64,000 nt of DNA from Owenia fusiformis (lineage: Eukaryota > Annelida > Polychaeta > Sabellida > Oweniidae): NCBI GenBank assembly GCA_903813345.2, contig CAIIXF020000011.1, positions 6,102,571 to 6,166,570 of the forward strand, given 5' to 3'. The position numbers and the translations under genes were made by a program. The stretch's first letter is position 1; each line of letters begins with the position of its first letter. Shown piece after piece: positions 115 through 64,000 of this stretch. The notes below the pieces were generated by a model. That model did no database searches, had not been told where the DNA came from, and was given only the letters and a program-made list of their open reading frames with translations.

Positions 115-2129
115 TGACTCTTATGCTATATTATTCGTAAAACTACTATCATGGGTGTGAAACATAGGCAAGGCAAATTTGTTTTTTATAATGTATGTAT
201 CAAATGATTCAAATGTGTGTTCCTGGCTAATAGTAATTCAACATACAAAGTTGGTTAATCACGGCCATAATTATATTACTGGAAAATTCAGGAAAATAAA
301 CTTCATGAAAATATGTACAATTATGTTTTATAAGATAGCATTTTGGAAATACAGGATGGAGTCTGATGCATCAAAATTCCAATAAACTTAACATTGTAAA
401 GAAGTGAACAAAAATACAAAAAGTAAAGACAAACCTACATGTGCACACATATGCATAATACCACCATGAAACAGCCTATTATCGCCCAAAGTTTTTTTTC
501 ACAAACCCCCTGGGATTTTATCATTTGAGACATCTTCAGGAGAATTTGATAAACGCACTGTGCATTTATTGGAGAGAATACGGTAGTAAACAATGTCCAA
601 CTGGTTGTATATAAGACAATCAAATCAAAGCATCTGAGTCAATAATTAATTGGCCATTGATCAAACAATCTTCCTTCCCCACCATTGCCCCCCCCCACCA
701 TTGGAGAAACACTATCACAATGCAAAAGCCATCTTCACCAATGCTATTCATCTGAGAAAAAATCTTTCTGTTATTCTTTGTTTGCGCTACCATTTTGCCA
801 TTCAGATAAATTTTGATGCATGAGATTAGTTTAATTTTTTGAACAAAGACAGAAAATAAAATGTACGATAAAGGCAAAGAAATTGGTGATGTGCGGTAAA
901 ATATTGTTTCTGATTACCTCGTATGTTAAAATGTGGTAGATCGAATCTTACAGTACTTTCAAAATCTTTGGTAATCAGTGTTAGAGTATACTTATTCAGT
1001 TATTGGGTATGGAGTACAGTAGTACACATCTCTTTAAGAAACTAGAGAAGGGATGGAGAGAGAGGATGTTGTAAGCTTAAACTGTTTTTTTCAAAAAAAG
1101 ATTACATTGTATCTCAACATTCAGAACTCAATCAATTAGGAATTTAGGAAAGATACCAGGCTTGGAACTGACAGTTAAATAAGATAGAAAAGACAAGTTG
1201 AGACTAAGTTTTAGAAAATGGATGGTCATAATTCTACATTGTTTTCTCTCGTCATGCCTCTTCTCTGTTATTCTTACTTTGTTTCAGGGTAATTCTTCAA
1301 TTTTTATGTGGCAATAGTTTTGATACGAAAAGGGAGCTAAGCCCTTTATGCATTTTACAAGTATAGGGTGACCCCAAAAATATAGTTTTGATATAAAAAG
1401 GGAGCTAACCCGTTTATGCATTTTACAAGTATAGGGTGACCCAAGAAATATCACCAACTAACTTTTGAATAACTTTCTCACTAAACACCCTGTATATCTG
1501 TTTTTTGTAGGACAAAATATGAGTTCATCTGTATATGAAACAAATTGTGTCCATGTTTCAAGACAGTGGTATATGACTGTGTATCATGAGCAAGTAATGT
1601 TGAATGTTCCAATTTTATTATAGTTTGATTATGTATAAATTTGGTAATCAGAAAGTGTATCATTTCCTTCACAAAATATATGAATAAAATCAAAAACGTC
1701 TTAAAATCTTGTACACAAGTACACTACCTGAAGAGCATCCAAATCGTTACGGTAACACTGTGTCCTCATAAAACATTAAGCCCCAGTGACTATATTGATA
1801 TGTATCCTCGTAGGTTTTGACCTACATTCATTCACAGTCTATACATGTATCTATGATGAAATACGAAACAAACTCATATTTTCGATTCAAAGAATTTATT
1901 TTTCAAAGAGTATGACAGAAAATACAGATGGAAAAATCAGTTTTTAAAGATATGTGATACTGTTCAATACAATCATTCAGTGGCATCTGCTTAGGATTCA
2001 CAGACATTCTTAATTTTTTGTAATTTTGTATGTTTATTTTTCATCCCATTTGCAGCTTTTCTTTTTGTCTGAAATAAGAATGTTATATTATATTTTGTAA
2101 TATTACATAATACTAATATTATATACATA
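115..2129. other. Gene-free spacer with a 68-bp duplication
   Basis: I see no exon on either strand. The stretch holds a C-run near 690, a two-copy 68-bp repeat (listed separately) and otherwise AT-rich unique-looking sequence. It separates the 3' end of the dehydrogenase gene (plus) from the vWA gene (minus), whose own 3' end may lie somewhere below 3545. Confidence 0.5.
1315..1450. repeat. 68-bp direct tandem duplication
   Basis: Two copies (1315-1382 and 1383-1450) share TAGTTTTGATA, an AAAAGGGAGCTAA block and then TTTATGCATTTTACAAGTAT followed by AGGGTGACCC. They differ at only a few positions, so the duplication is fairly young. No coding capacity. Confidence 0.85.
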
Positions 2130-2200
2130 GGGGTTATGCACTGGGAGGTTTTGGAAACAAGGAATATCCCGAGGATATATTCGATATCCAGGCAAATATA
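2130..2200 (+). repeat. Half copy of the GGTTTTGGATACAGGG hairpin family
   Basis: GGGGTTATGCACTGGGAGG then TTTTGGAAACAAGGAATATCCCGAGGATATA-type sequence matches the left arm of the complete hairpin at 60059-60201. The right arm is not recognisable here; the sequence drifts into unrelated bases after about 2200. It is a broken or single-arm copy of the same family. Confidence 0.7.
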
Positions 2201-2982
2201 TTTTGTCTGTCCCGCATATGGCGTTATCTGGGACGTACGATGGCGGGATGTATAGCCGAATAAATCCTCGGTTAATATGTCCCTGAGATCTCATCACATA
2301 TGGAATACATGTACATATACATGCATGTCGAAGAGAATTGTTACAAAACTGCAAAATAGACCCAAGAAATGAAGAGGGCAAGAACTAACAAGGAAAACAA
2401 ACCCAAAATATAAAATAGTATGATCTAAAGTGTAATAATCTCCCTACTTGGGAAAACCAAAGTTTCAAATAGAGAAGGATTGCATTTGAAATTTATTGAC
2501 CACTAACAAAGTTCATTTGAGATCAATTTCGAATTTTGATTTCTCACTTTAAAATTGGGAATGCCCAATATTCATGAATGTACTATCTAATCCGCCTTGT
2601 GACAGTCATAAACCATTCCGGTAATAGTTAGCCTATTATTCCAGAGACATTCATATTTCTAATTAACACAGTGGTGAATTGTTTCACACTATTACCCTGT
2701 TGCTCGGTAACTGCATCATTCATATACTTAACACATCCTCTTTTATGAAAAATTTAAGAAGGTGATACTGGTGTTGTCACATTTACATGTAAATGTTTAC
2801 TATTACATTTATAATCGTATTTTGAATAATCGCTATACATTGCCGTCATATTGTGCTAATGGGTGTGAATCGAGTATTCATTAAAATTCCCATTTTCGAC
2901 TTCCAAGGTGGTATAACAGTTTGAGGAACTGAGCAATTGAAACCAACTGAATCAAGATGTAAAATTCCAGGAAAACCATTAA

Positions 2983-3472
2983 AAGCCCACTTCGCATATT
3001 TTCAATGTTTTTTGGGCAAAATAAAGACTTTTATTTGAATTCTATAGAATGTCCAATGTATTGATAAGAACCATATCTTTCATTTGACACCAACAATAGC
3101 TCAAACGGACCACATCAAAGCTTACAATAAATAATCAAAAAATATTTTTGATCTGTCAAGCTTTATATATCAAGTTTTTATCAATATCAGTAAAAGATGG
3201 CGAAGTTGTTTGTATTACATGATACATTCATTTTTATAGAAGTGTCACCATCTTTTAAATCAAAAGTAATTAAAACATGCACTTTCTTTAGCATGTGCAT
3301 GCATGTCTGATGATCTCTGAACTTCAAATGCTTTTTTCTATGTGAGTTATTTTTTCTTGGTTCAATATTAAAGCAAATCAAACTTTGTTTCATATTTGAG
3401 CGAGTGTGTGAGTAATATGTTTCAATGATAGTTTTTCTCTTTTTTCTTATAAATTGAGTATAGTGGGCCTTT
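2983..3472 (-). mobile_element. TTAA-type MITE (piggyBac-like), copy 1
   Basis: About 490 bp, inverted relative to copy 2 at 23822-24298 and similar along its whole length. The ends carry AAGCCCACTT and AGTGGGCCTT. TTAA flanks the left side (2979-2982) and TTAT the right, a decayed TTAA. Shared internal blocks include GAAGTTCAGAGATCAT-type and AAGATGGCGAAGTTG-type segments. No transposase is encoded. TTAA target duplications with CCC-containing ends are the hallmark of piggyBac-type elements. It lies just beyond the last vWA exon I could define and may be part of that gene's last intron or 3' UTR. Confidence 0.72.
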
Positions 3473-3544
3473 TATTGTTCATCTTGAGCTTTCTACAGAT
3501 GCAAGGACACCATACTAGTGCCAATATCTGATTATTTAACTTAC

Positions 3545-3709
3545 TGTTGATGCAAATCTCCTCTGTCAGATGAATCCCGACCCATATAAGGTCTTTAAAC
3601 GATGCACCTGGTATTTGCATGTTCACAACTGTGCAGTTGATTGGTTCAGATCCAATTTTCTTCCATTCACGCTCGTACCCATCATTGTTTTCTTTATGAT
3701 TGGGAAGTC
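3545..3709 (-). CDS. vWA gene exon 6: C-terminal part of second vWA domain
   Basis: The acceptor CAAATAG|GA (phase 1) and donor AACA|GTAAGT (phase 1) bound 55 codons. GLPNHKENNDGYEREWKKIG then CTVVNMQIPGASF and VGIHLTEEIC match the helix-strand-helix that ends many invertebrate vWA domains. The reading continues into an unseen exon; a very short intron with a stop soon after is possible (see rejected items). Confidence 0.8.
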
Positions 3710-6700
3710 CTATTTGAGAAAGAGGATACAATATAATCAGAGATCATTCACATTTGCATAATATATATTATTTATGGTGTTGCTAACATGTTGGCTGTCA
3801 TTTGACGCATCCACTCGTATGCAAAAGTTGCCTGGCCAAACAATGATGGTCGACTGAGATGAAGGAATAGGTACATGTGGGAATCTTCAAAATGCCATTT
3901 GGTTTTGTCCAGTTTGTCCTTTGCTCTGTCATCTTGATCAATCAAGGTACAACTAAAGGAAGTAACACTGGACTAACACTATGTTGACATGCAGCCTTAT
4001 TTAGCATTCGCAAATTCAACTGATGTCTACTTTCTAATGGCCAACCGTGGGCTTTCAACTATCTAATTGAAAGCCCATGGGCCAACTAATTGTAATATCA
4101 ATGGTACAGTTGCAGGTACTATTTATACTTAAATGAGTAGCCACAGGTTAATCCATCAGCCGCTAGTTGTATTAAGGAATGCTACCTAAGAAACATCTCA
4201 GTAGATTCAGTAGAGGCATGCTGTGACACAAAATCACTCAAAAATGTTAATTAGAAAATCTGTCTTTCAAAAAATTTACCCAATACATGTAAGTGAGTGA
4301 CAAAATTATTTAGGAAAATGGGTAGATGTGACACATCATTGGTAATATATGTGAATGCTAGTGAAAGCAATCCAGAAAGATAAAAATCAAAGATTTCGGA
4401 AAATTACATTTTTGAACATTTTTGATGATTTCACCGAGAACATGCCTGGACGGAAATTATGATATCTCTAAATCTCAAAGTTGTTGATGCTATCCAAGAA
4501 CAACAATCTTTTCTCCATTGAACACTCTGTCTACACCTAAAATTCACACATGAAATTCCTTATTTATTGAGAAAGTTATTCCAAATTAAGTGGATGGCAA
4601 TTTTGTGTCACCCTGTATTTCAGTTACTCATATTTACCAGCTACATATATCTCTGCTCCAATATCCTTTAACTTCTGGGCGGCTTTGATGGTATCTGCTC
4701 CACTGTCTACGACTCTTCGATTAGCCTTCCAGGTTCTGCCATCAGTACAAATTACGACTATTTTCCTGACATTTGGTCTTGCCCTTGATGATTGTAATTC
4801 CTTCTGAGCTGCAGCTATAAACACACATAAATAGGATGGAATGCATGTTGTGAGTTTGAAAGAAGGACATGAATACGAATGTTCATATTTTTCCTTCAGC
4901 CATTTCTTCTTGCATTGTATGTTTTTGTGTTTATATCATCTTAAATATCTCTTTAGATAATCTAACATCAATCAGCTAAGAGCTTTAAAATCAAAAATAT
5001 AACTAGACATCAAAACTGCAAGCAATCATATACTTTTTTAAGGTCAATAAAAGGTCAGATTTAAAAAAGGATACACAAGAACTCATGAATTTAATAATCC
5101 AAAATTTGACCTTGAAAAAATGTTAAAATTTGACCTTTTTTCAATTGTTGTACTCAATATTTTCTAAATATATTATAAGTGCAAAATGTTTACAAATACA
5201 CTGTAGTCAATTGCTAATTGCTAATATTTAACTTTAACTCATTTTAAAATGTGGATATGTAGTTCCAAACTTTGAAAAACTTAGAAAGCAGATTTGTGAC
5301 TTACAGTAATTTGATGACATTTGACCTTCAAAGTTTCCCTTTTTCTAACCTCTTAATAATTTTATGAACGTTTACCAATACTGTATGTGACCTTTTGTCA
5401 TAGTTTTGCTACTTCATGTCAAGTTTACCCCAATTCTCTGTTCTGTTTGCCATTTCTGTTCGAAATGAACTTTTTCATACACCCCTCTTTCAAAAAATGC
5501 CCATGGGCCTATTTGAGAGTATGGGGCAGATTTTGGCAAATATGCTTAATTTCATTTTTTGTTTTGTACTGTTATCACTGTTCATGTACTACTTACCCAG
5601 TGCAATGTGTGTTTGTGTATATGTTGCTGTTTTTCTTGGAATTTTTCTTGCAGCTTTGATCAAGCCTTCCTTGCCATATTGTCCCAATTTTGCATGGGTG
5701 TATACTCTTCTATTGTAGCTCAAGATTGCAATCTAGAACCCATTCAGAATTAGAAAATAAAACATGCATGCAAAAGAATTGATCTCAAACTAAGCCACGG
5801 TGGTCTTTAATCACATTCTATAGATGATCCAGATACTCTAGTACCCCGATGATACAAACATGCATCTGAAAGACATATATTGCTTCTGTTTGATTTTATT
5901 ACATAAACATTACATGAGGAAATATATTTTTCTCCCATTCTCTTACTTCTTATGTATAATTCATTGTAACTCTCTTATATCATGTATTTAAGAGGTAACA
6001 TTTTGTATTTGAATGGATTAAAACTAGAATCAGTAGTATTTAGCTTGACAATTCTGCTCACGTGGTTTCTTTAATTAATACGATGTATAATTAACCATAG
6101 TATATGTAGAGAGGCTATCATTATATAATACCTGAAGGTAATTAATTCTGTCAACAGCGGTGGGGCTCAAAATCTTGCTTGCTTTAAGAAAATCATCCAA
6201 GAATTCCAATAAATCACTAAGATCTGGTTTGGTGATACTGTTGGATCTGTCCACGATAAACACCACATCAGCTGTACAACATGGTACTGGAATAGATTTC
6301 AAAATGTCCTAACAATTTAAGATGTTGTTCTACCTAACTCAATCAGCCGAGATTTTCAGACCGTGTATTACATTTTTAGTCCTACAGGATTTTATTTTGT
6401 TATTTTTATCATGTATGTTAATGCTATAATATCTGATCCAATAAAGCTCACAACTTAATAAAATGGCTTATTAGGGCCGCATAGTACATGTTATATGAAT
6501 ATATTTACTCACCTTGGTCTTCTAATGGTATACTTATTTCCCCAAGTACAAGTTCTACTGATTGGTCCTTCTGTACCCCAAGGTTTGGACAAACCACTGT
6601 GTTTGCAGGAAACGTGTCTGGTGTGTTAGTGTACGAGATAGGCTTCCATTCATCTACTCCAGTTCTCTCGACAGGACTTTCGGTCGGATGAATCCTGATC

Positions 6701-9003
6701 ACTTGAATGCTGCTTATCGGGTGCTGCTTTTGGTTTTTTATGTCAAATGCTTTGTCATTTGTTAATTTTCTTGAATTCTCCATGTTGTATTTATTATCAA
6801 TAGAAATACCATCCGTAAAAATAATAATATTATCAGGGGCTTCATCTTTTTCTTTCTGTTTAAAAAGATTATTGCATGCATCTAGAGCTTTGTGGGTTTC
6901 AGCTTTGCAATCATCGCAGGTTCCTTCTTGTCTGTTGTCTAATATATTCCCTATCTGCCCAACATCAGAAGACCATGATAATTCCACTTTTGCATCTTTA
7001 CTGTATGTCACCAATGAAAATGTTGATATATCAGCTTTCTTAATGATTTCAAGGATGTCGTTTTTTGCACTTTTCAAAACTTCGGCCCTTCGCGCTTCAC
7101 TCTCTCGACAAGAAGTTTGAACAATGAAGCAGTAGTCTCCATATGTTTCTAAACCTATAAAGATAGATAATTTCAGTATATAATTATGTGTGACAGGACA
7201 AAAGATGTATCGTTTGCTCAGAAGGAGGAAAAGTTTTGTGCACTTTCTACCCCCCCCCCCCCCCCCCCATAGCTCTGATTCTGCCATTATGACGCTGTAG
7301 TCTTTGTCTTTAATCAAGATTCAAGATTTTATTATGTTTCCTCACAAGAAAATTACATTATATAATTATACAGTTATAATGTAAAATGCATTGAATTTAA
7401 CAAGTATTCAAATAATAATAGTTCTATATAAGTTCACCCCTCTTACATGTATTACAAACTCATTACAAACTTACATGTATATACTAAAACAACTTTATTC
7501 ATTTCTTCAGAGAATTTTCTTTATTAGATCAAGTCTTTATACTAGTATCCTCAAGACTTTTTCAAAATTAAAAAAATATGTATCATAGCAAGTCAAAAGC
7601 ATTGATGTAATAAAAAAATTATCTGGAGTTGTTTTAGTATACAATTAATAATAATTTAATCATCTCCTTTCAAAAGTAAACTTTAGTCAGAATAACAGAT
7701 GCACCAGTTTTAAAACTCATAAATGACTGGAATCACCCTAGCCTTATAGTAAATCGAATACCAACCATCTCTTGGTTCAAAAGTGCAATTAAACAATTCA
7801 TTCATGTATCAAACTTCATACCAACGTCAAAACTAAACACATTTAAGACCGCACCTTGAATTAAGGAACAATTGAGATTCAAAGAAAGGATAGGTATGGA
7901 TATGGAGAACTGAATTCAACAATGTTTTTCTCTTAAACCAATCATTGAAAACATTCTGTAAAAAAACATGGTATTTTATGTAATGTTGACTGATTGACAA
8001 CAATTTAATGCGAAAATTATTTAGAAATATTTTATATAACTGTTTTTGTTGTTTTTTTGTTTTATTAGTGCAATTGTTTTTGCTCCTTTCTACCAATTTT
8101 TGAGAATAAAATAAAATGTCTTTCCGAACCTTGTTGGAACAAAATAGCATATACAACATGTTTTTAAACCTCTCAATATTAAAGTTATACAAAGGAATTT
8201 CTGGTTGATTTTTAAAAAGTATTCAAAAAATTAAAACAAAATCCCTCCAAAATAGATAAGAATCAAGAAAAAACTTTTATTTCATTAACAAGATACTTTT
8301 TTAAAATCAACCAAAATTTCCTTTGTACAATTACAATACTGAGAGACCTAAACATGTTTATATCGTTTTGTTCCAATGAGGTTCGGAAAGATGTTTCATT
8401 TCTCACTCTGGAAACATGATACCAAGAACAAAACTAGTGTTTGATGTGTTTTTTAAAACAATATAGATGAAAGTATGTATATCTATTTCAAATTATATTG
8501 TTACCATTCAAAAGATGGCCATTAAATTGACAATTTGTAAGATTTTCAGAAATTTTTGATGACTGGTTTAAGAGAAACGTGTGTTAAAAAAGTTCGCCAT
8601 ATCGATACCCATTCTTTGATTGAAATAGTGATGCATTTGTTCAGATCCATCTCATTTGTAAAACTCTTGAAACCAAGATACATATTTATAAAAATAAAAA
8701 AGCAAGTCTAAAAGGTTTTCCCTGCATTTTTGATATTCTAAATATAGTATTAAATTGTAATTAAAATAACATACGTGATTTTGGGACACATTTGTCTGCC
8801 CAGAATGCATCAGTCAAGTTGAATTCAAAGCCAGCTCTTGCTTGCATTTCGCCTTCCCCCAGCTTAACTTCACCTCTCTGAAGCTTATACCACAACGCAG
8901 GGTCAAGAACATCATAGACAGCTTTCAGTGAATTTATACCCACTGCTTCGCTTGTGTGCAAGCTGCACAGTAGCAGTGATGTCGCAAGTAGTATCAACTT
9001 CAT
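3545..9003 (-). CDS. Secreted two-domain vWA protein, six exons assembled, 3' end not found
   Basis: Exons in transcript order are 9003-8775, 7154-6513, 6286-6132, 5732-5597, 4814-4638 and 3709-3545. All introns are GT..AG and every junction keeps frame, giving 501 residues so far. The N-terminus (MKLILLATSLLLCSLHTS) is a clear signal peptide, so the product is secreted. Residues about 82-240 form a degenerate vWA-like domain: it keeps a TDG strand but has QTSCR where the metal-binding DxSxS should be. Residues about 297-490 form a canonical vWA domain with D303-R-S-N-S307, a TATYTQT segment near 377-383 and CTDG at 410-413, a full MIDAS set. vWA domains bind protein ligands or matrix, and similar paired-vWA secreted proteins are common in marine invertebrates. 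After residue 501 the phase-1 donor at 3544 shows at least one more exon, which I could not place. Intron 1 carries a long palindrome, and the 5' flank is duplicated several times. Confidence 0.82.
4038..4083. repeat. Short hairpin in intron 5 (GGGCTTTCAA family)
   Basis: ATGGCCAACCGTGGGCTTTC is followed after an 8-base spacer by the complementary TTGAAAGCCCATGGGCC. A related hairpin occurs at 31391-31428, and a single arm (CCATGGGCTTTCTAATTG) at 15738. It appears to be a small dispersed fold-back family. Confidence 0.72.
4638..4814 (-). CDS. vWA gene exon 5: TDG strand of second vWA domain
   Basis: The acceptor TTATAG|CT (phase 1) and donor GCTG|GTAAAT (phase 1) frame RKIVVICTDGRTW and DIGAEIYVAG. 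These are the fourth strand with the TDG metal ligand and the following strand of the Rossmann-like vWA fold. Confidence 0.85.
5597..5732 (-). CDS. vWA gene exon 4: cryptic middle exon of second vWA domain
   Basis: This exon is short (136 bases) with no Met and is easy to miss. Acceptor TTCTAG|ATT (phase 0) and donor CTGG|GTAAGT (phase 1) fit exons 3 and 5 exactly. It encodes IAILSYNRRVYTHAKLG, a basic helix and TATYTQTHIAL, which are the second strand and third MIDAS loop expected at this point in a vWA domain. The opposite strand has a longer open frame that is a shadow. Confidence 0.85.
6132..6286 (-). CDS. vWA gene exon 3: start of second vWA domain (MIDAS loop)
   Basis: The acceptor TTCCAG|TA is phase 1 and the donor CTTCAG|GTATTA is phase 0. 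It encodes CCTADVVFIVDRSNSI, the first strand and MIDAS loop of a canonical vWA domain, then a helix. Confidence 0.83.
6513..7154 (-). CDS. vWA gene exon 2: degenerate first vWA-like domain
   Basis: The acceptor CTTTATAG|GT is at 7155 and the donor CAAG|GTGAGT at 6512; both are phase 1. The 642 bases encode a whole domain: the strand YCFIVQTS, FSLVTYSKDAKVELSW, a CDDC pair, then DNIIIFTDGIS. The order matches a vWA fold, but the DxSxS loop has lost its Asp, so metal binding is doubtful. A linker of about 60 residues rich in Pro and Thr follows. Confidence 0.82.
7872..8630. repeat. Long palindrome in intron 1 of the vWA gene (arms about 350 bp)
   Basis: The left arm (about 7872-8222) and right arm (about 8285-8630) are reverse complements with moderate divergence and a spacer of about 60 bases. 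Matching blocks include CTCTTAAACCAATCAT with CTCTTAAACCAGTCAT, TCTTTCCGAACCTTG with TCTTTCCGAACCTCA, and ACAAAGGAATTTCTGGTTGA with ACAAAGGAAATTTTGGTTGA. No terminal target duplication was identified. It could be a fold-back transposon or an inverted duplication. Transcribed, it would give a long hairpin RNA. Confidence 0.78.
8775..9003 (-). CDS. vWA gene exon 1: signal peptide and N-terminal segment
   Basis: The ATG at 9003-9001 opens a strong signal peptide, followed by about 55 residues with an acidic, amphipathic character and CVPKS at the end. The donor is C|GTATGT at 8775/8774, phase 1. This start is chosen because the hydrophobic stretch follows at once. Just upstream lies a partial second copy of the start codon region (MKLIFIAT, 9147-9124) that loses the signal peptide after about eight residues. 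Confidence 0.82.
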
Positions 9004-13890: not shown

Positions 13891-14425
13891 GACCCCAACA
13901 ATTATTATTTAAAATATGGATGAATATATAATTTGTGGTGACTGCTCGTGGGATGATATTGTGACTGAAAATTGCGGTATTGATATTAGATTGTCTGATG
14001 ATGAAAATGAACAAAATGATCTGTGAAAGATGGAGCGCTCGTCAAGCTTCAAAGAAATAATTATTTGTAGACCCAGAACCTTAAAATGTTTAGTATTATC
14101 AGTGTTAGGAATGAAATGTACTATTTGAAGTCCATGGTGTGATGTAGGTTTTAAAAAGTAATCTTGGGAATACTTGAAAGATATCATGTTTAATTTCGTG
14201 TGTATTCGTTTAGGAAGACATTTATCTTTCTAATAACGTTAAACGATTTTCCAACAGTTCTCGATTTTTTTTCTACCCACGAAAATTGATCAGTTGGAAA
14301 ATGTTGGGTTTTTCACATTTCCTTTGATCATTTTTTCCCCTGTTGCCTAAGAGTGTCGATTATTTTTTATGAGAATATGTTTCTCTATACTACACAATTT
14401 AGGACGGGTGGAGATTAATAAATAT

Positions 14426-15962: not shown

Positions 15963-16367
15963 CACTTATAATTTTTTAAATTATAGCCAAAATGTTAATA
16001 CTTATTAAATCTTCAACAGACCTAAATGTGCTGTTTAAAGAAACATATTCTCATAAAAATCTTAGACAACAGGGGAGGAAATGATCAAAGAAAATGTGTA
16101 AAAACACAACATTTTTCAGCCGACCAATTATATGGGTAGATTGACTACGAAAAAATCTAGCACTGTTCGAAAAGATTTTAACGTTATTAGAAAGTTAAAT
16201 GTCTTCCTGAACGAATACACAAAAAATCAAACATGAAATCCTTAATGCATTTCTCAGATTATTTTTTTAAAACCTACATCAGACCTACATCATTGTCTTT
16301 GCTTCAAATCGGTTAAATAGTGACATCGTACATCAAAAGTGTACTACGGTATATTTTGTCACTGTAC

Positions 16368-27022: not shown

Positions 27023-27208
27023 ACGGTATATGTCACAATTTATTTACCATCTACCCTTCCCTTGATTCGTAAATAGACAAAAGACAATCATTGGAGATGT
27101 ATCAGAATTTACGCCAATTTAAGCATCTGTTGATCTGGGTGACCATTCAAGAGTATCAAAGGCAAAAATCATAAAGACAATATTTATGATCTAATGTAGT
27201 ACACTCTT

Positions 27209-27298
27209 GTATTCCATACCTACTAAGGTTCTAGATAAATAAAGAGCGAGATATTGATATATAAGAATACACCTAGAACCTTACTAGGTATGGAATAC
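27209..27298. repeat. Hairpin with 26-bp arms
   Basis: GTATTCCATACCTACTAAGG plus TTCTAG (27209-27234) pairs with 27273-27298 with one mismatch around a 38-base loop. It lies ten bases from a longer hairpin element at 27308-27445. Confidence 0.85.
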
Positions 27299-27307
27299 AT
27301 TACACCT

Positions 27308-27445
27308 GTTATGTACAGTCGGTTTTGGATACAGGGTTTATCCCAAAGGAAATATGTGTATATCTCGAGGGACCGCAGGGACCGAGGGATATACACATAT
27401 TTCCCTTGGGATAAACCCTGTATCCAAAACCTCCCAGTACATAAC
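27308..27445. repeat. GGTTTTGGATACAGGG hairpin element, copy B
   Basis: Arms of about 45 bp run from GGTTTTGGATACAGGGTTTA inward to TATGTGTATATC and are complementary with one or two bulges. The apex is GAGGGACCGCAGGGACCGAG. The flanks GTTATGTAC and GTACATAAC are themselves inverted. It shares outer arm and apex with copies at 58738-58876 and 60059-60201 but has its own inner stem. Confidence 0.85.
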
Positions 27446-57684: not shown

Positions 57685-57903
57685 TCATGGCTTGTGTTTA
57701 TATTGCATGAGAATTTTATATGTTCAAGCTATGATAAATCACTGGCATGTAGCGGCCCTGATATCGATAAATTCTACACGCAATATAACCCGATTTTAGA
57801 TGCTTGGTTAAAACTTTACACGAAAAAGCCTCGATATCCGGGCATTTACTCTTACACTGAACTGAAAATAGCATCGTCTAAACGTGTATGTCTTGGCTTC
57901 CGG
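57685..57903 (+). CDS. Candidate exon of an unrecognised protein
   Basis: From an acceptor-like GATCCCAG|GC to a strong donor CCGG|GTAAGT the frame is open for 73 codons. The second half (GPDIDKFYTQYNPILDAWLK, then KKPRYPGIYSYTELKIASSK) looks like a real folded protein: mixed aromatic and charged residues, no low complexity. The entry phase would fit the phase-1 donor of the WAVE-homology exon at 32774, but the residues do not resemble NHS or WASF, and the acceptor has a weak pyrimidine tract. A start at ATG 57670 is also possible, making it a 5' exon. Function unknown. Confidence 0.42.
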
Positions 57904-58133
57904 GTAAGTTTATCAACATTTATACTCAATTGAAAGAGCAGTCGTGCTTATATCGTGTACCAGTTTGATTGTTTTATATGTGTGTGTATTTATAATATGA
58001 TAGCCTAGTAATACCGTGTCGTTGGAACAAGTGCTAGATATCGAACTGATGACCTGAAATTAGATTATTGGACTGATCGCGCATCTGATATTAGATGATT
58101 AATTTGCATTGAATCTGATATTAACTTGCAACC

Positions 58134-58239
58134 TAGCCTTGCCCAAGTCGGTATTTTTTACTTATCTGATCTTGAATTATTACCGGCGGTCATAATAGAA
58201 ATCAAGATAAGTAAAAGAGACCGACTTGGGGCAAGGCTA
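58134..58239. mobile_element. Hairpin MITE with 9-bp TSD CTTGCAACC
   Basis: TAGCCTTGCCCAAGTCGGT and ACCGACTTGGGGCAAGGCTA begin arms of about 40 bp that continue through TTTTACTTATCTGATCTTGA-type sequence. CTTGCAACC is repeated exactly on both sides (58125-58133 and 58240-58248), proving insertion as a hairpin unit. Confidence 0.88.
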
Positions 58240-58544
58240 CTTGCAACCCAATACCACAGTAAATACCATGACTTTACATTAGAATGATAACACGGCCAAA
58301 TATTCTAATTCATTATATGTCCATTGCAGGCCAAAAATGTTTCAATGTGGATATTGTAATGCACACGAGAATACATTCGATTCGTATATATTGATCATAC
58401 ATCAATTGAACATGGAGATTTTCCTGTACACTTTTCCCAAACATGTGGAATAGACTAGATGCGAATAGAAATTTTCTTGATTTATCCTATGCCAAGTAGG
58501 GTTTTAGGGAGATAAGTTGGTAAGATATATCCCGTATCCTGATT

Positions 58545-58640
58545 TTGAGGTTTCCATATCAAGAACCTCCATATCTCCCGTCATATCTCCCCCTTCGGTG
58601 CATATCTTCCCGCTTCGGGGCGTATCGCCCCGCTTCCAAA
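58545..58640. repeat. Short degenerate tandem block with CATATCTCCC/CGCTTC units
   Basis: About four units alternate CATATCTCCC-type and CTTCGGGG-type segments (CATATCTTCCCGCTTCGGGG, then CGTATCGCCCCGCTTCC). The words resemble pieces of the neighbouring hairpins. Confidence 0.5.
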
Positions 58641-58737
58641 AAAGTGGAAATGCAATAAAATGACTTTGCATATGAATGATTTGTTTATTTTTTACACCTT
58701 GTACTACTGAAAACTCTACTTGGTATAGGATAAAGCA

Positions 58738-58876
58738 GTTATGTACGGTCGGTTTGGATATTGGATTCATCCCTCGTGAGATATGCACATCTACTTTCTG
58801 TCCCTACGGTCCCTCAGGTAGATATGCATATCTCCCTCTGGAAAAACCCCATATCCAAAACCCCCCAGTACATAAC
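58738..58876. repeat. GGTTTTGGATACAGGG hairpin element, copy C
   Basis: The outer ends GTTATGTAC and GTACATAAC are perfect. Arms (GGTTTGGATATTGGATTCAT inward to GCACATCTAC) pair imperfectly with GTAGATATGCATATCTCCCT outward. The apex TGTCCCTACGGTCCCTCAG is the reverse complement of the apex in copies B and D. It is the most diverged full copy. Confidence 0.78.
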
Positions 58877-58980
58877 CCTTATTTATCCCATGGTTACAAG
58901 GATATAGATCGAATATCACGTGAAGATATAATTGATACGTGGATGAAGATCATATTTTAGCAAACAATTCCCAAATCATA

Positions 58981-59080
58981 TCACTTTTGAAACCATCGAA
59001 TATCACTTTTTGAAAGGTGATATTCGATGGTTTCAAAAGTGATATTCGATGGTTTCAAAAGTGATATTCGATGGTTTTGA
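58981..59080. repeat. Three 22-bp direct repeats plus an inverted copy
   Basis: GTGATATTCGATGGTTTCAA (22-bp period) occurs three times (59016-59080), preceded by the inverted TTGAAACCATCGAATATCAC (58986-59007). The block can form a slipped hairpin. Confidence 0.88.
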
Positions 59081-59319
59081 TTTTTTCAATTTTTTTTATT
59101 AATTCAGCAAAACGATTGTTTATATATTTATTATATATTTTTATTTTTTGGGATCTTGTTTTTACGGCGTTCGCATTAAATACAAACCACTCTGTTACGT
59201 CACGTATATGACGTTCGTTGAATTATCGCAATCAAAATATCAGACGAAATGGAATTTCCATTGCAATTTATCTGACTATTCAATGTTCGCTGGATAATAA
59301 TTCCCAATGGGATAAAGAT

Positions 59320-59454
59320 AATCCTATGGTTTTTCAAAAATATCACTTATATCCACTCATGGATATCAGTATCTTCACTCATTCGCTGCGCTCACTGGCG
59401 AAGATATCAATATCCACTCATGGATATAAGTGATATTTTTTCAGAGCCATAGGA
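59320..59454. repeat. Fold-back element with 56-bp arms
   Basis: ATCCTATGG..AAAAATATCACTTATATCC and its inverse end at 59454 pair over 56 bp with about six mismatches. Each arm also contains a smaller palindrome (ATATCCACTCATGGATAT). The loop (59376-59398) is ACTCATTCGCTGCGCTCACT plus GGC. Confidence 0.88.
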
Positions 59455-60058
59455 TATTCCTATATTATTCCATAGTTAGCATGATATCCATAGGATAACA
59501 TGTCAAAATAAAAACGGTATTTTTGAAATCACTGGTAAAATATGATATTTTTGGCAAATTTTCACTTAACCATACATAGCATACGGTGTTTTAGGCCCCT
59601 TTTTAGCCATGACATACGGCGCCGTATGCCATGGTTTATGGATTTTTGCTACTTCAGACTCAAAACGAGGCTAAGTGTCAATATCGCCGTAGATATAGTA
59701 TATCTGCCCGCTACGTCATAATCGCCGCTTGCATATTTGTTCATAATTTGTAACGTTCGCGGAATGACTGTAAACGGCAATGGAGAAAACACAGACAATC
59801 AGGGTCTGTTTGATACTTAAAAAAAGGGAAAGAGCATCCACTTAATCAATAAAAAATTCGAGAAAATAAATATGGGAATATTTGAGAGAACATGAAAATC
59901 CGCCCACGGCCAAGAAAACAAAACTGGACATGAATATTCTAAAATGTTTTCACGATTTAACAATGTGAACCAGATGACCAAGATTGGTATGGGATAAACA
60001 TATTATCCTATAGTCGCGGTTCAGGATATTGGGATTATCCCTTGGCCAATATATAGGG

Positions 60059-60201
60059 GTTATGCAATTGGAGGTTTTGGATACAGGGAATATCCCGAGG
60101 GATATACAATATATCTTCCCGAGGGACCGAAGGGACCAAGGGAAGATATATTATATATCCCTCGGGATATTCCCTGTATCCAAAACCTCCAAGTGCATAA
60201 C
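60059..60201. repeat. GGTTTTGGATACAGGG hairpin element, copy D (51-bp arms, one mismatch)
   Basis: From GGAGGTTTTGGATACAGGGA inward through ATATCCCGAGGGATATA and ATATATCTTCCC the arms match with one mismatch in 51 bp. The apex is GAGGGACCGAAGGGACCAA. The outer GTTATGCA and TGCATAAC are inverted too. It is the best preserved copy. Confidence 0.9.
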
Positions 60202-62210
60202 TGTTTTATATAGTTTAGCTTGATATGTACTTCTTTCTGTAACTGGAATACGATTCTAATATACAAGCAGCACATACGTATTCCCGGGGAACCATAAATA
60301 TTTTGTGTAGGGTGTGGACATTTTTCTTTTCATTTCTCTAAAATCAGATTATTCTCATGAAATTCATACAAAGTTGGGCCTAAGCCTCTATTTTCGTATT
60401 CTGCATGTTAAGATATTTATGATGTAAAACCTAAGAGATAAATTCAATGTCTTCAGTTGAGAATAAGTATAAGGTAAATGTGTGAATTCTGCTTGTTGTT
60501 GCACTATTTTTATAATAAACAAGGTTCGATACGCAACACTGAATAGACTGCAGTCATAGCTTAGTTGTAAAGAAAACAAAAGAAGTTGGGACGTGGTCAT
60601 GCTTGAATACGATTTTAAATATATCGCCCTTTACATTTGTTGAAATCGGCCTGTATTAATTTCAACAGGTGATCGGTGTACAAGGGCATATATTTGAGTT
60701 ATTGGTTTAACGATAAGTATGACCTATGAGTGGGTAATGTTTTACAAATGCATGAAACAAATACTCCAATGGCCTAATCTCAATTTTCCTGCATAAACTA
60801 TTACATTGAAATGATGGTCATTTGCTCTCTAACTTCCGCACCGCATACGTAACTTCGTAACAATTCAATAAGCCAAGACAGGACCGTTATAATCGCTACA
60901 TGCCAGTGATAAATACCTGCTAGTTGATCTACACAGATCAAGCAGCCTGTCTAGTCATGTGTATGATACCCTGAGATTATAATTTAGGACACTCCACTCT
61001 GATTATGACAATTCAATTGTACATTGGTGTGTAAACATATTCAGTGATGAAGCTGAAAATTAACAAGTGAAAGGGTAGAAAATCCGAGGCCGCATTTGTG
61101 AAGGAAGAATTTTGGGGCCCTTTTAAAAAGTAGGTTTATCGGTTTATTGGTAATATTGAGCGAGATGGTTGTAATAATGCAAAAATCATTCAGTTAATAA
61201 ACACTAGTTCTAGTATATGGAATATAGAGTTACATAATCAACATAATTATTTTAAATTCAATATAGATGGAAATGTGGTGGAATTGCATTAACATTATTA
61301 AAGTGTGGGGATCAAAATAAGAAATAATGTTGTGTACTGAGTTTATTTAAATTTAATAAGGAAATGTCATTTAAAATACTTGACAAGGGTAAATTTTATG
61401 CCAGGGTGGTAATTAATGGATGTACACTATATTTTCATGTCTGTAGTATTTAGAAATAACATGCAATGCACTTCTACATTGACTAACCCATTCATCCCTA
61501 ACATCATGGAATGCAGCTTTGCAGGGAAACTTCACATATTAACTTCCCTCCTTTAACAAACTTATATATTGTTACCCTTGTTCAGAAACCCAAGCCCTCT
61601 AACTTATGTTTAAGACTGGTACTCCATTCTCTATTCAGAAGGTAGTAACAACTATCCTCTATGGTACTGGGTATTTATAATGTGTGATGAGTGATAGGGG
61701 TGGGGGTGGTACACAAGGGTTCGATACGAGTCTATCACCCTTTTCAAAAATGAAATTTGACTACTCAATATTTAATAAAAATGAAACATTGTTTCAAAGC
61801 CTTTGTTCTCAGGGTGGGGTCTGTTCTTAAACTTTGACCTTGGTCGATATCACTTTCTTATCTGCATTTTTAGAAATATAAGAATAAACCTTAATTTGTA
61901 ATCAATAATTTATAATACTGCCAGAGCCAGGATGTAACACCCGCTTGAGGCGAAATGCGATACGTCAGCAGTTCTAAATGCTTTTCAACTACTAGTATAT
62001 TGATTATGTCTTTAAATTATTGCATTTCAGCTCTGAATAAATATTCGTTATCTGAACATATTTACCTAATGACAAAGTGAAAGTAAAAATAGTCTATGTT
62101 CAGCAAACGGCAGCTGGCGGTGGTATGCAAACGGGAAATTGCCTCTTCAGAAAATTGAGTGTTATTTATAATCCTTTTAATTGTTAATATCAAGGGTTTA
62201 AGGATAGTTT
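60202..62210. other. Spacer, no gene seen
   Basis: AT-rich sequence with no supported exon, RNA gene or distinct repeat. Confidence 0.4.
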
Positions 62211-62219
62211 AATTATGTT

Positions 62220-62331
62220 ACAGTTTAGAACACCTTCTATTTACAGAACACCTTCCTATTACAGAACACCTTCCTATTACAGAACACCTTCTCTTTACAG
62301 AACACTTTCCATTTACAGAATGCTTTCTATT
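62220..62331. repeat. 18-19-bp tandem repeat, about six units
   Basis: Units of TTACAGAACACCTTCCTA type, drifting to ACAGAATGCTTTCTATT at the right end. Confidence 0.9.
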
Positions 62332-63730
62332 AAAGAGAGGTTTTATTGATAGAGCTCGATATTTTCTTTGATAGAAACTTGAGAAAAATATCACCTAATT
62401 ATGAGGGTTGATTCAAAAGTACAAACAGATTTTCAATGAGGTCCTTGTAGATTTCCAAATTTTCAACTTGGTGATATACCATATTCCCTCAATACTATAA
62501 GGGAATGGATTAAAAATATGCTAAGATTCTGACTGAAGACAAGTCATCAAATCAATGGCTTGTGTTTTTTTTAGACCTCTGGATAAACAACCACCTTAAC
62601 AAAATCTTAGCTTGTAGATTTGTACAAGGATGTGAATGGGAGCTAAACTGGTCTCAATTTCATGGAATATTTGTGTTTAATGTTTGTATTTATATTCATA
62701 CACAATATAAAACACCAAAAGTTGAAACTTGAGCGAAATGCCTTAGAATCAAGTGTCTGAAATCTCCCCAAATCTGTCACTTAATCCAAATATTCCATAA
62801 AACAGAATTCCGGGTTGAAGTTTGGGTTTTATAACAATCGTTCAGATTCTTTTATGTTTCTTAAAGATAAGAATCTTTAAATTGGAGTTAGGCGGAATTC
62901 TGTCAAAATATACAAAACAACTTTATCCGATTATCTTTAATCTTATAATGGCTGTATGTGTGTTCTTTTGTGGTTTAGTCTGAAATTCAGATCTTTAATA
63001 TTTATCATAAATTGTATACAGAATTAGTTGGAATGTTTATTATAAAGATCATGTGGTTTTTGGTAAAGTTAAGTCAATCTAACTGTAATTTTTTCAATAA
63101 ATCTTAATGTGATAAATGAATCAGAAAAATTATTTAAATGTTTAGATCTGAGATTTAAGAATTATTCATACCATGATGGATTAGATAATTAGAAAATAAA
63201 GGCACTGAAAACTTATTAGATTTCAGTTTAGTATGGTATATATGCTATGGCATCTAGCATGGCTGACACCACATCCATTTACCTATCATTAGTAACATAA
63301 CCATTTTCCCATCTTTAGAGACATTCCCATTTGTGATTTAAGTTTAATTTCCTCTTTAGAATCATCTTGATCCACAAAGTTTCTGTTGTTCCTGTTCTAG
63401 ACTCGGTGGAAAGTGACGATGTTTAGAAGCCAATGCTTAGTGACATACTCATTCAAGCACATGTAGAATATAGTAGACCATGTAACAGTTAATTTGCTAG
63501 AGTGGTATGTTTCAATTGACACGTCAAGCAATAGTCCTATTCGCGTTAGGAAATTACTGGTCATTAACATAAATATTTCCCGCAATGCAACACGATAAAA
63601 TGGACAATTTTCTATTGGTCCGCAAAACACAACGTCATAGGCATTATCCCGAACCAACATTAGTACATTTGTATAATAATATTCTATAATCCAGACAATA
63701 ATTAGAAAAGAAGATGGAAATTCAATTTGC
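62332..63730. other. Spacer, no gene seen
   Basis: A minus-strand open frame of 112 codons (63735-63397) has no motif or splice context and is not claimed. Confidence 0.4.
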
Positions 63731-63735
63731 TTCAA

Positions 63736-63815
63736 TTATTTTTTCTATGGTGTCGGAGCAAGTTCCGGGAACTGAGCAACTTCCGGGAAATCTGTGACGT
63801 CACTTGAATTTTAAA
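63736..63815. promoter_or_regulatory. Possible promoter: ETS-like and CRE motifs
   Basis: AGTTCCGGGAAC and ACTTCCGGGAAA (ETS-like CTTCCGG cores), then TGTGACGTCACTTG (a full CRE palindrome TGACGTCA) lie within 60 bases near the end of the window. Such a set is typical of a TATA-less housekeeping promoter; the gene would start beyond or near the right edge. By-eye motif match only. Confidence 0.35.
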
Positions 63816-64000
63816 CTTAGGATTTTGACGATTCTGGTGAATATATTTTTAAAAAACTTGTCAAATGTCTTTATAATGAACATATCTACCGTATGTGCAA
63901 ATATAATTCATGATAAACCTCTAATAAAGTCACAATGCGTCATTGAAAAACACAGCCAATGTTATTCCAATGGGGAAGTGCCCGGATGTTGAGAAAGTTG

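Follow-up and report, generated by a model that had tools for sequence, protein, structure and literature searches.

Paired stem changes and an inverted apex in a dispersed family of short palindromes, probably reflecting copying of one arm onto the other

Template switching between the arms of an inverted repeat is reported to yield both homogenisation of the arms and inversion of the spacer (PMC8604942). In the comparison with simulations given in PMC8794818, multiple compensatory changes are enriched, as is loop inversion alone, while loop inversions accompanied by a compensatory change (6 cases) are not; loop inversion is also reported there for MIR633, and the authors regard their evidence that short RNA stems are maintained as circumstantial. 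Among foldback transposons, Table 2 of the Galileo paper, the subject of which is inversions resulting from recombination between copies, lists a low divergence between the terminal repeats of the same copy in two cases (0.0018 for 1L/1R and 0.0071 for 2L/2R), the other two copies being unmatched within the copy (0.0628 for 4L/4R and 0.0570 for 5L/5R) (PMC2775673). The Tetris study describes repeats that group by copy in two of three complete copies, and homogenisation is suggested (PMC4079207).

Within the 64 kb stretch of DNA analysed here (the window; 34% G+C), we find one dispersed repeat family, comprising three near-palindromes of about 140 bp (copies B, C and D) and two half copies (A and E). 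Copy B (27308..27445, + strand) is a near-perfect hairpin, copy C (58738..58876, + strand) has a decayed stem, and copy D is again a near-perfect hairpin (60059..60201), placed on the - strand from about 8 flank bases per side. Half copy A (2123..2188, - strand) is a single right-type arm with a D-type inner stem, broken within the stem. The initial annotation had located B, C, D and this half copy (start near 2123-2131) correctly; its list lacked half copy E (~59984..60042, + strand), a left-type arm remnant with the signature AGTCGCGG that adjoins D. In alignments of E to the left part of C, none of 2000 shuffles scored as high, and the same held for B (0/2000). No second arm scoring above shuffles was found for A in 2200-8200, or for E in 60223-64000, and the breakage of both half copies within the stem fits what is expected for deletion at unstable palindromes. 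The window content is eukaryote-like: the six proteins scanned comprise two reverse transcriptase fragments, an FkbM methyltransferase domain, leucine-rich repeats, a von Willebrand A domain and one protein without a match.

The three hairpins are not products of chance. When the window was scanned for hairpins without gaps, 7 were returned (B, C, D and 4 others), whereas three sequences simulated with a first-order Markov model gave 1, 0 and 0. RNA folding of both strands of B, C and D gives z-scores between -7.9 and -19.2, and in none of the six folds did any of the 200 shuffles fold as well.

Full copies start with GTTATG and end with its complement. Proceeding inward, a signature of 6-7 bases is followed by a core, which reads TTTTGGATACAGGG in B and D; the inner stem then covers about 28 columns, and the apex resembles GAGGGACCGNAGGGACC. 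The signatures are side-specific in B (AGTCGG left, TGGGAGG right) and in C (GGTCGG left, TGGGGGG right), and the half copies follow the same division, with a left type in E and a right type in A. In D the signature is homogenised, with TTGGAGG on both arms, while side-specific bases are retained just outside GTTATG (ATAAAACA and ATATAGGG, with the counterparts ATAAAGCA and AAATAAGG in C). D also carries an extra paired TTCCC/GGGAA adjoining the apex. Homology among the copies runs some bases past GTTATG, and B, C and E are alike further to the left.

The feature that drew attention to this family was an inner stem said to differ between copies while remaining paired within each copy. As far as pairing is concerned this holds, with 27/28 columns matching in B and 26/27 in D; the stems are not unrelated, as B and D are homologous and agree in 20/28 columns on either side (BL-DL and BR-DR). 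The weaker pairing ascribed to C is likewise real (inner stem 21/28, core 11/14). Thus the stem near the apex is near-identical within B and within D, yet different between B and D.

Co-variation was analysed on a hand-made alignment of the three full copies (six arms), with about 58 alignable columns per arm. Over core and inner stem, identity to the own partner arm is 0.98 in B, 0.76 in C and 0.98 in D, as compared to 0.60-0.83 between copies; the right arm of C is equally near to the right arm of B (0.76) and to its own left arm (0.76). Among the 15 possible pairings of the six arms, the own-partner pairing takes rank 1, which is the smallest value attainable with six arms. Of 41 stem columns, 7 distinguish the left arms of B and D and 7 their right arms; 6 of these coincide, and all 6 show the identical change on both arms. 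The probability of such an overlap by chance over core and inner stem is 1.1e-5 for B-D, 0.00099 for B-C and 0.0037 for C-D. Restricted to the inner stem, the values become 1.6e-4, 0.022 and 0.064, and with the first 20 inner-stem columns 0.0022, 0.34 and 0.25, respectively. Because of this behaviour, the co-variation between B and D is robust and the comparisons involving C are not. Mismatches within the stem number 1/42 core and inner columns in B and 1/41 in D, and a binomial test on within-copy mismatches, entered as 2/81 against 14/82, gives 4e-5. Arm homogenisation is accordingly clear for B and D, and weak for C. Three of the six paired changes between B and D are T/A swaps, which lack a wobble intermediate and so cannot pass through G-U pairs. 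A strand-specific wobble signal was considered as well and discarded, as the arms show only 1, 3 and 1 transition mismatches in B, C and D, too few and inconsistent in strand.

Outside the stem the pattern is different. The own-partner pairing falls to rank 10/15 in the outer region and to rank 12/15 in flank and signature, and the best pairing there joins BL with CL, BR with CR, and the two D arms with each other. Identity in the outer region is 0.79 for BL-CL and 0.96 for BR-CR, while own partners reach 0.58 (B) and 0.62 (C). When columns are compared between B and C, flank and signature contain 4 side-specific and 0 copy-specific columns, and core and inner stem 0 and 6; for this split a Fisher test gives 1/210 when worked out by hand, and the values computed with 3 or 2 side-specific columns are 0.012 and 0.036. 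In the signature of D, the comparison with B and that with C each yield one copy-specific column and no side-specific one. Grouping of left arms with left arms, which the initial annotation had regarded as the mark of an artefact, is thus absent in the stem and present in the outer ends of B and C, and this is the division that local copying near the apex predicts.

The apex had been described as shared by B and D. On the + strand this is correct: that of B (27367..27383, GAGGGACCGCAGGGACC) and that of D (60121..60137) align with a score of 30 forward and 6 as reverse complement. The apex of C (58799..58815, - orientation) lies opposite to both: against B it scores 8 forward and 28 as reverse complement, with the outer ends of the two copies co-oriented. 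The outer flanks of D suggest the - strand for this copy, in which case its apex would agree with that of C, the orientation of D resting on about 8 bases beside GTTATG, as its longer flanks compared to C were equalled by 1844/2000 shuffles on one side and by 22/2000 on the other. With so few bases orienting D, we restrict the claim to one loop inversion, that of B versus C, which can be stated with confidence.

In copy C, core and inner stem contain 9 mismatched columns (6 transversions and 3 transitions) and a gap. Judged against B and D, the derived base is on the left arm in 6/9 mismatches and on the right arm in 2, the remaining one being unclear. Along the inner stem they amount to 1/14 near the apex and 6/14 in the outer half, a trend seen in one copy. 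C looks like a once-matched stem that is decaying freely, and since its mismatches are mostly private to one arm, they argue against present selection for pairing in this copy.

We consider it probable that B, C and D belong to a dispersed, non-coding, foldback- or MITE-like repeat of about 140-bp palindromes in which one arm has been copied onto the other. A difference between left and right arms predates the separation of B and C, because the left and right end types are common to both copies. Without exchange, the divergence between the arms of one copy should be at least as large as that between copies; the one mismatch each in the stems of B and D therefore points to exchange in the stem after the split. 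The copying step itself is deduced by comparing sequences, and its most likely route would be a switch of template by the DNA polymerase within the folded hairpin (quasi-palindrome correction), with gene conversion within the palindrome as an equivalent route. Copying would be strongest near the apex, so leaving the side identity of the outermost bases intact. The copied tract would span nearly the whole arm in D, and copying may have ceased in C, where mutations of single arms could then have built up. Switching from strand to strand would also flip the loop, and deletion at the unstable palindrome may have produced the stem-broken half copies A and E. The process seems to be a known type of replication error, here in a previously undescribed repeat.

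The initial annotation had left copying and selection side by side. Under selection, compensatory mutation would preserve the RNA (or DNA) fold of a transcribed hairpin, for instance that of a small-RNA precursor. The stable folds on both strands would suit such a role, and among 36 sub-threshold Rfam matches in 58400-60400 (E up to 1) there are three to microRNA models on D and one on C, nearly all other microRNA-model matches in this interval falling on an unrelated hairpin (58978-59067). All 36 remain below the gathering score, which no Rfam family reaches in the window, so that the hairpins do not qualify as microRNA precursors by this measure. Further points against selection are the paired T/A swaps with no wobble path, the outer signatures of B and C, which are not maintained as paired, and the stem of C, where 8/9 mismatched columns, beside the gap, are assignable to one arm. 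We therefore regard selection for pairing as unlikely; in these three copies the T/A swaps, the inverted apex and the arm-private decay of C favour copying as the better fit. Somewhat less probable is a reading in which the paired changes have a single origin in a few source elements, so that the copies merely display membership of ordinary subfamilies. The D-type inner stem is indeed not unique to D, and its presence in A implies that at least part of the changes are at the level of subfamilies. This reading shifts arm copying into the source elements, where the paired changes still need a mechanism.

It is also conceivable that each hairpin was born anew by inverted duplication of one arm, the identity of the arms then reflecting recent origin. 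The existence of the single-arm copies A and E would allow this, and the near-perfect match of D along its whole arm suits it. B and C, in sharing distinct left and right ends, go back to a single palindrome whose two arms already differed, and for these two copies independent birth is disfavoured; for the family as a whole we find it improbable. Most improbable of all, in our view, is multiplication via a self-priming, snap-back hairpin DNA intermediate, in which each round of transposition would rewrite one arm and flip the apex. The terminal hairpins of parvoviruses show such flip and flop forms. Were this route to apply, arm identity and apex flip would be by-products of the copying of the element and not errors of chromosomal replication. 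Compared to these alternatives, copying of one arm onto the other within the folded palindrome is the reading that we favour.

As to the class of element, two traits of MITE and foldback elements are present. The inverted repeats make up nearly the whole of a short, non-coding element (no open reading frame of at least 110 aa overlaps B, C or D), and the copies are dispersed with unrelated flanks, as blastn with the regions surrounding A, B, C and D detects no long stretch of flank in common. No transposase is found among the six window proteins scanned. By eye the flanks are TA-rich, and no target-site duplication is clear in all copies, the ends of the element being uncertain. B and C each have a second, diverged inverted repeat on their left, so that the element proper may be composite and of larger size: beside B it occupies 27208..27299 (+ strand; arms of 27 nt with 38 nt between), ending 8 bases left of the copy, and beside C it occupies 58478..58737 (+ strand; arms of 28 nt with 204 nt between), ending at the left edge of the copy. 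The arms of the two repeats resemble each other, with 1/2000 shuffles as high for the left and 8/2000 for the right. The possibility that C and D, about 1.2 kb apart and in opposite orientation as assigned, are the terminal hairpins of a single element was rejected, as B stands alone and the interval between them has no second copy (blastn of 57900-60700 against the window, E 0.05, low-complexity filter).

Other palindromic sequences occur in the window. The region 58.1-60.2 kb forms a palindrome cluster, in which C, D and E are accompanied by two long imperfect hairpins at 58108-58264 and 59321-59455 (self-match 78% and 75%). The hairpin at 58978-59067 has perfectly complementary 33-nt arms of the repeated unit GTGATATTCGATGGTTTCAAAA and shows no match to the family by blastn, and a short near-perfect palindrome of 28 nt (93% self-match) surrounds CATACGGCGCCGTATG at 59607-59634. 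Elsewhere, a long inverted repeat (14149-14399 / 16024-16271), about 1.9 kb apart, has 122-nt arms at 83% and further matching pieces, and possibly represents the ends of another element.

Searches for copies elsewhere covered viral, prokaryotic, phage and plasmid DNA, so that their negative outcome says little about an animal-like repeat. In exact-pattern scans of viral_contigs, neither the three arm patterns nor the 16-mer GGTTTTGGATACAGGG gave any locus; the apex pattern returned 33 loci, with a best flank pairing of 20/30 positions after trials of offsets and none with the family stem in the printed flanks, and many of them read like collagen-type Gly-Pro repeats. Two patterns gave 0 matches in genome_contigs, and distant blastn found no match for D against plasmids or for B against phages. 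The 16-mer has 0 occurrences in the literature searched, and the family was not recognised, by title or start of abstract, among the matches listed for foldback and MITE palindromes (molluscs, bivalves), arm conversion and flip/flop. We thus found no earlier report of this hairpin family, either by the 16-mer or among the matches listed on related repeats and mechanisms.

If the pattern holds genome-wide, the family would offer many replicates of one palindrome, in which rate, tract length and direction of arm copying, together with loop inversion, become measurable. It would also illustrate that selection is not needed for paired stem changes, which are usually taken to prove that an RNA fold is functional.

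In its elements the process is the same as template-switch mutation at inverted repeats, for which multi-base paired stem changes, arm homogenisation and inversion of the loop or spacer are described (PMC8794818, PMC8604942). These studies map events on gene trees, either for rRNA and microRNA genes or for yeast coding genes with short inverted repeats, where the spacer inversions are substitutions of 2-5 bp (PMC8794818, PMC8604942); the present family differs in having arms of about 58 alignable columns in a dispersed repeat, compared copy with copy. It resembles the foldback transposons Galileo and Tetris in being dispersed and dominated by inverted repeats, and both are described as larger elements (PMC2775673, PMC4079207); target-site duplications of 8-10 bp are given for Tetris (PMC4079207), whereas none is established here. 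Like the MITE-derived microRNA hairpins, for example hsa-mir-548/Made1 as described in PMC1784062, its copies are short, palindromic and transposon-like, and their RNA would form hairpins; unlike hsa-mir-548/Made1 (PMC1784062), the present family is known from DNA alone and has no Rfam match at the gathering score. Each part of the pattern is already known from one or other of these systems, and the present family unites arm homogenisation and loop inversion in one short dispersed hairpin.
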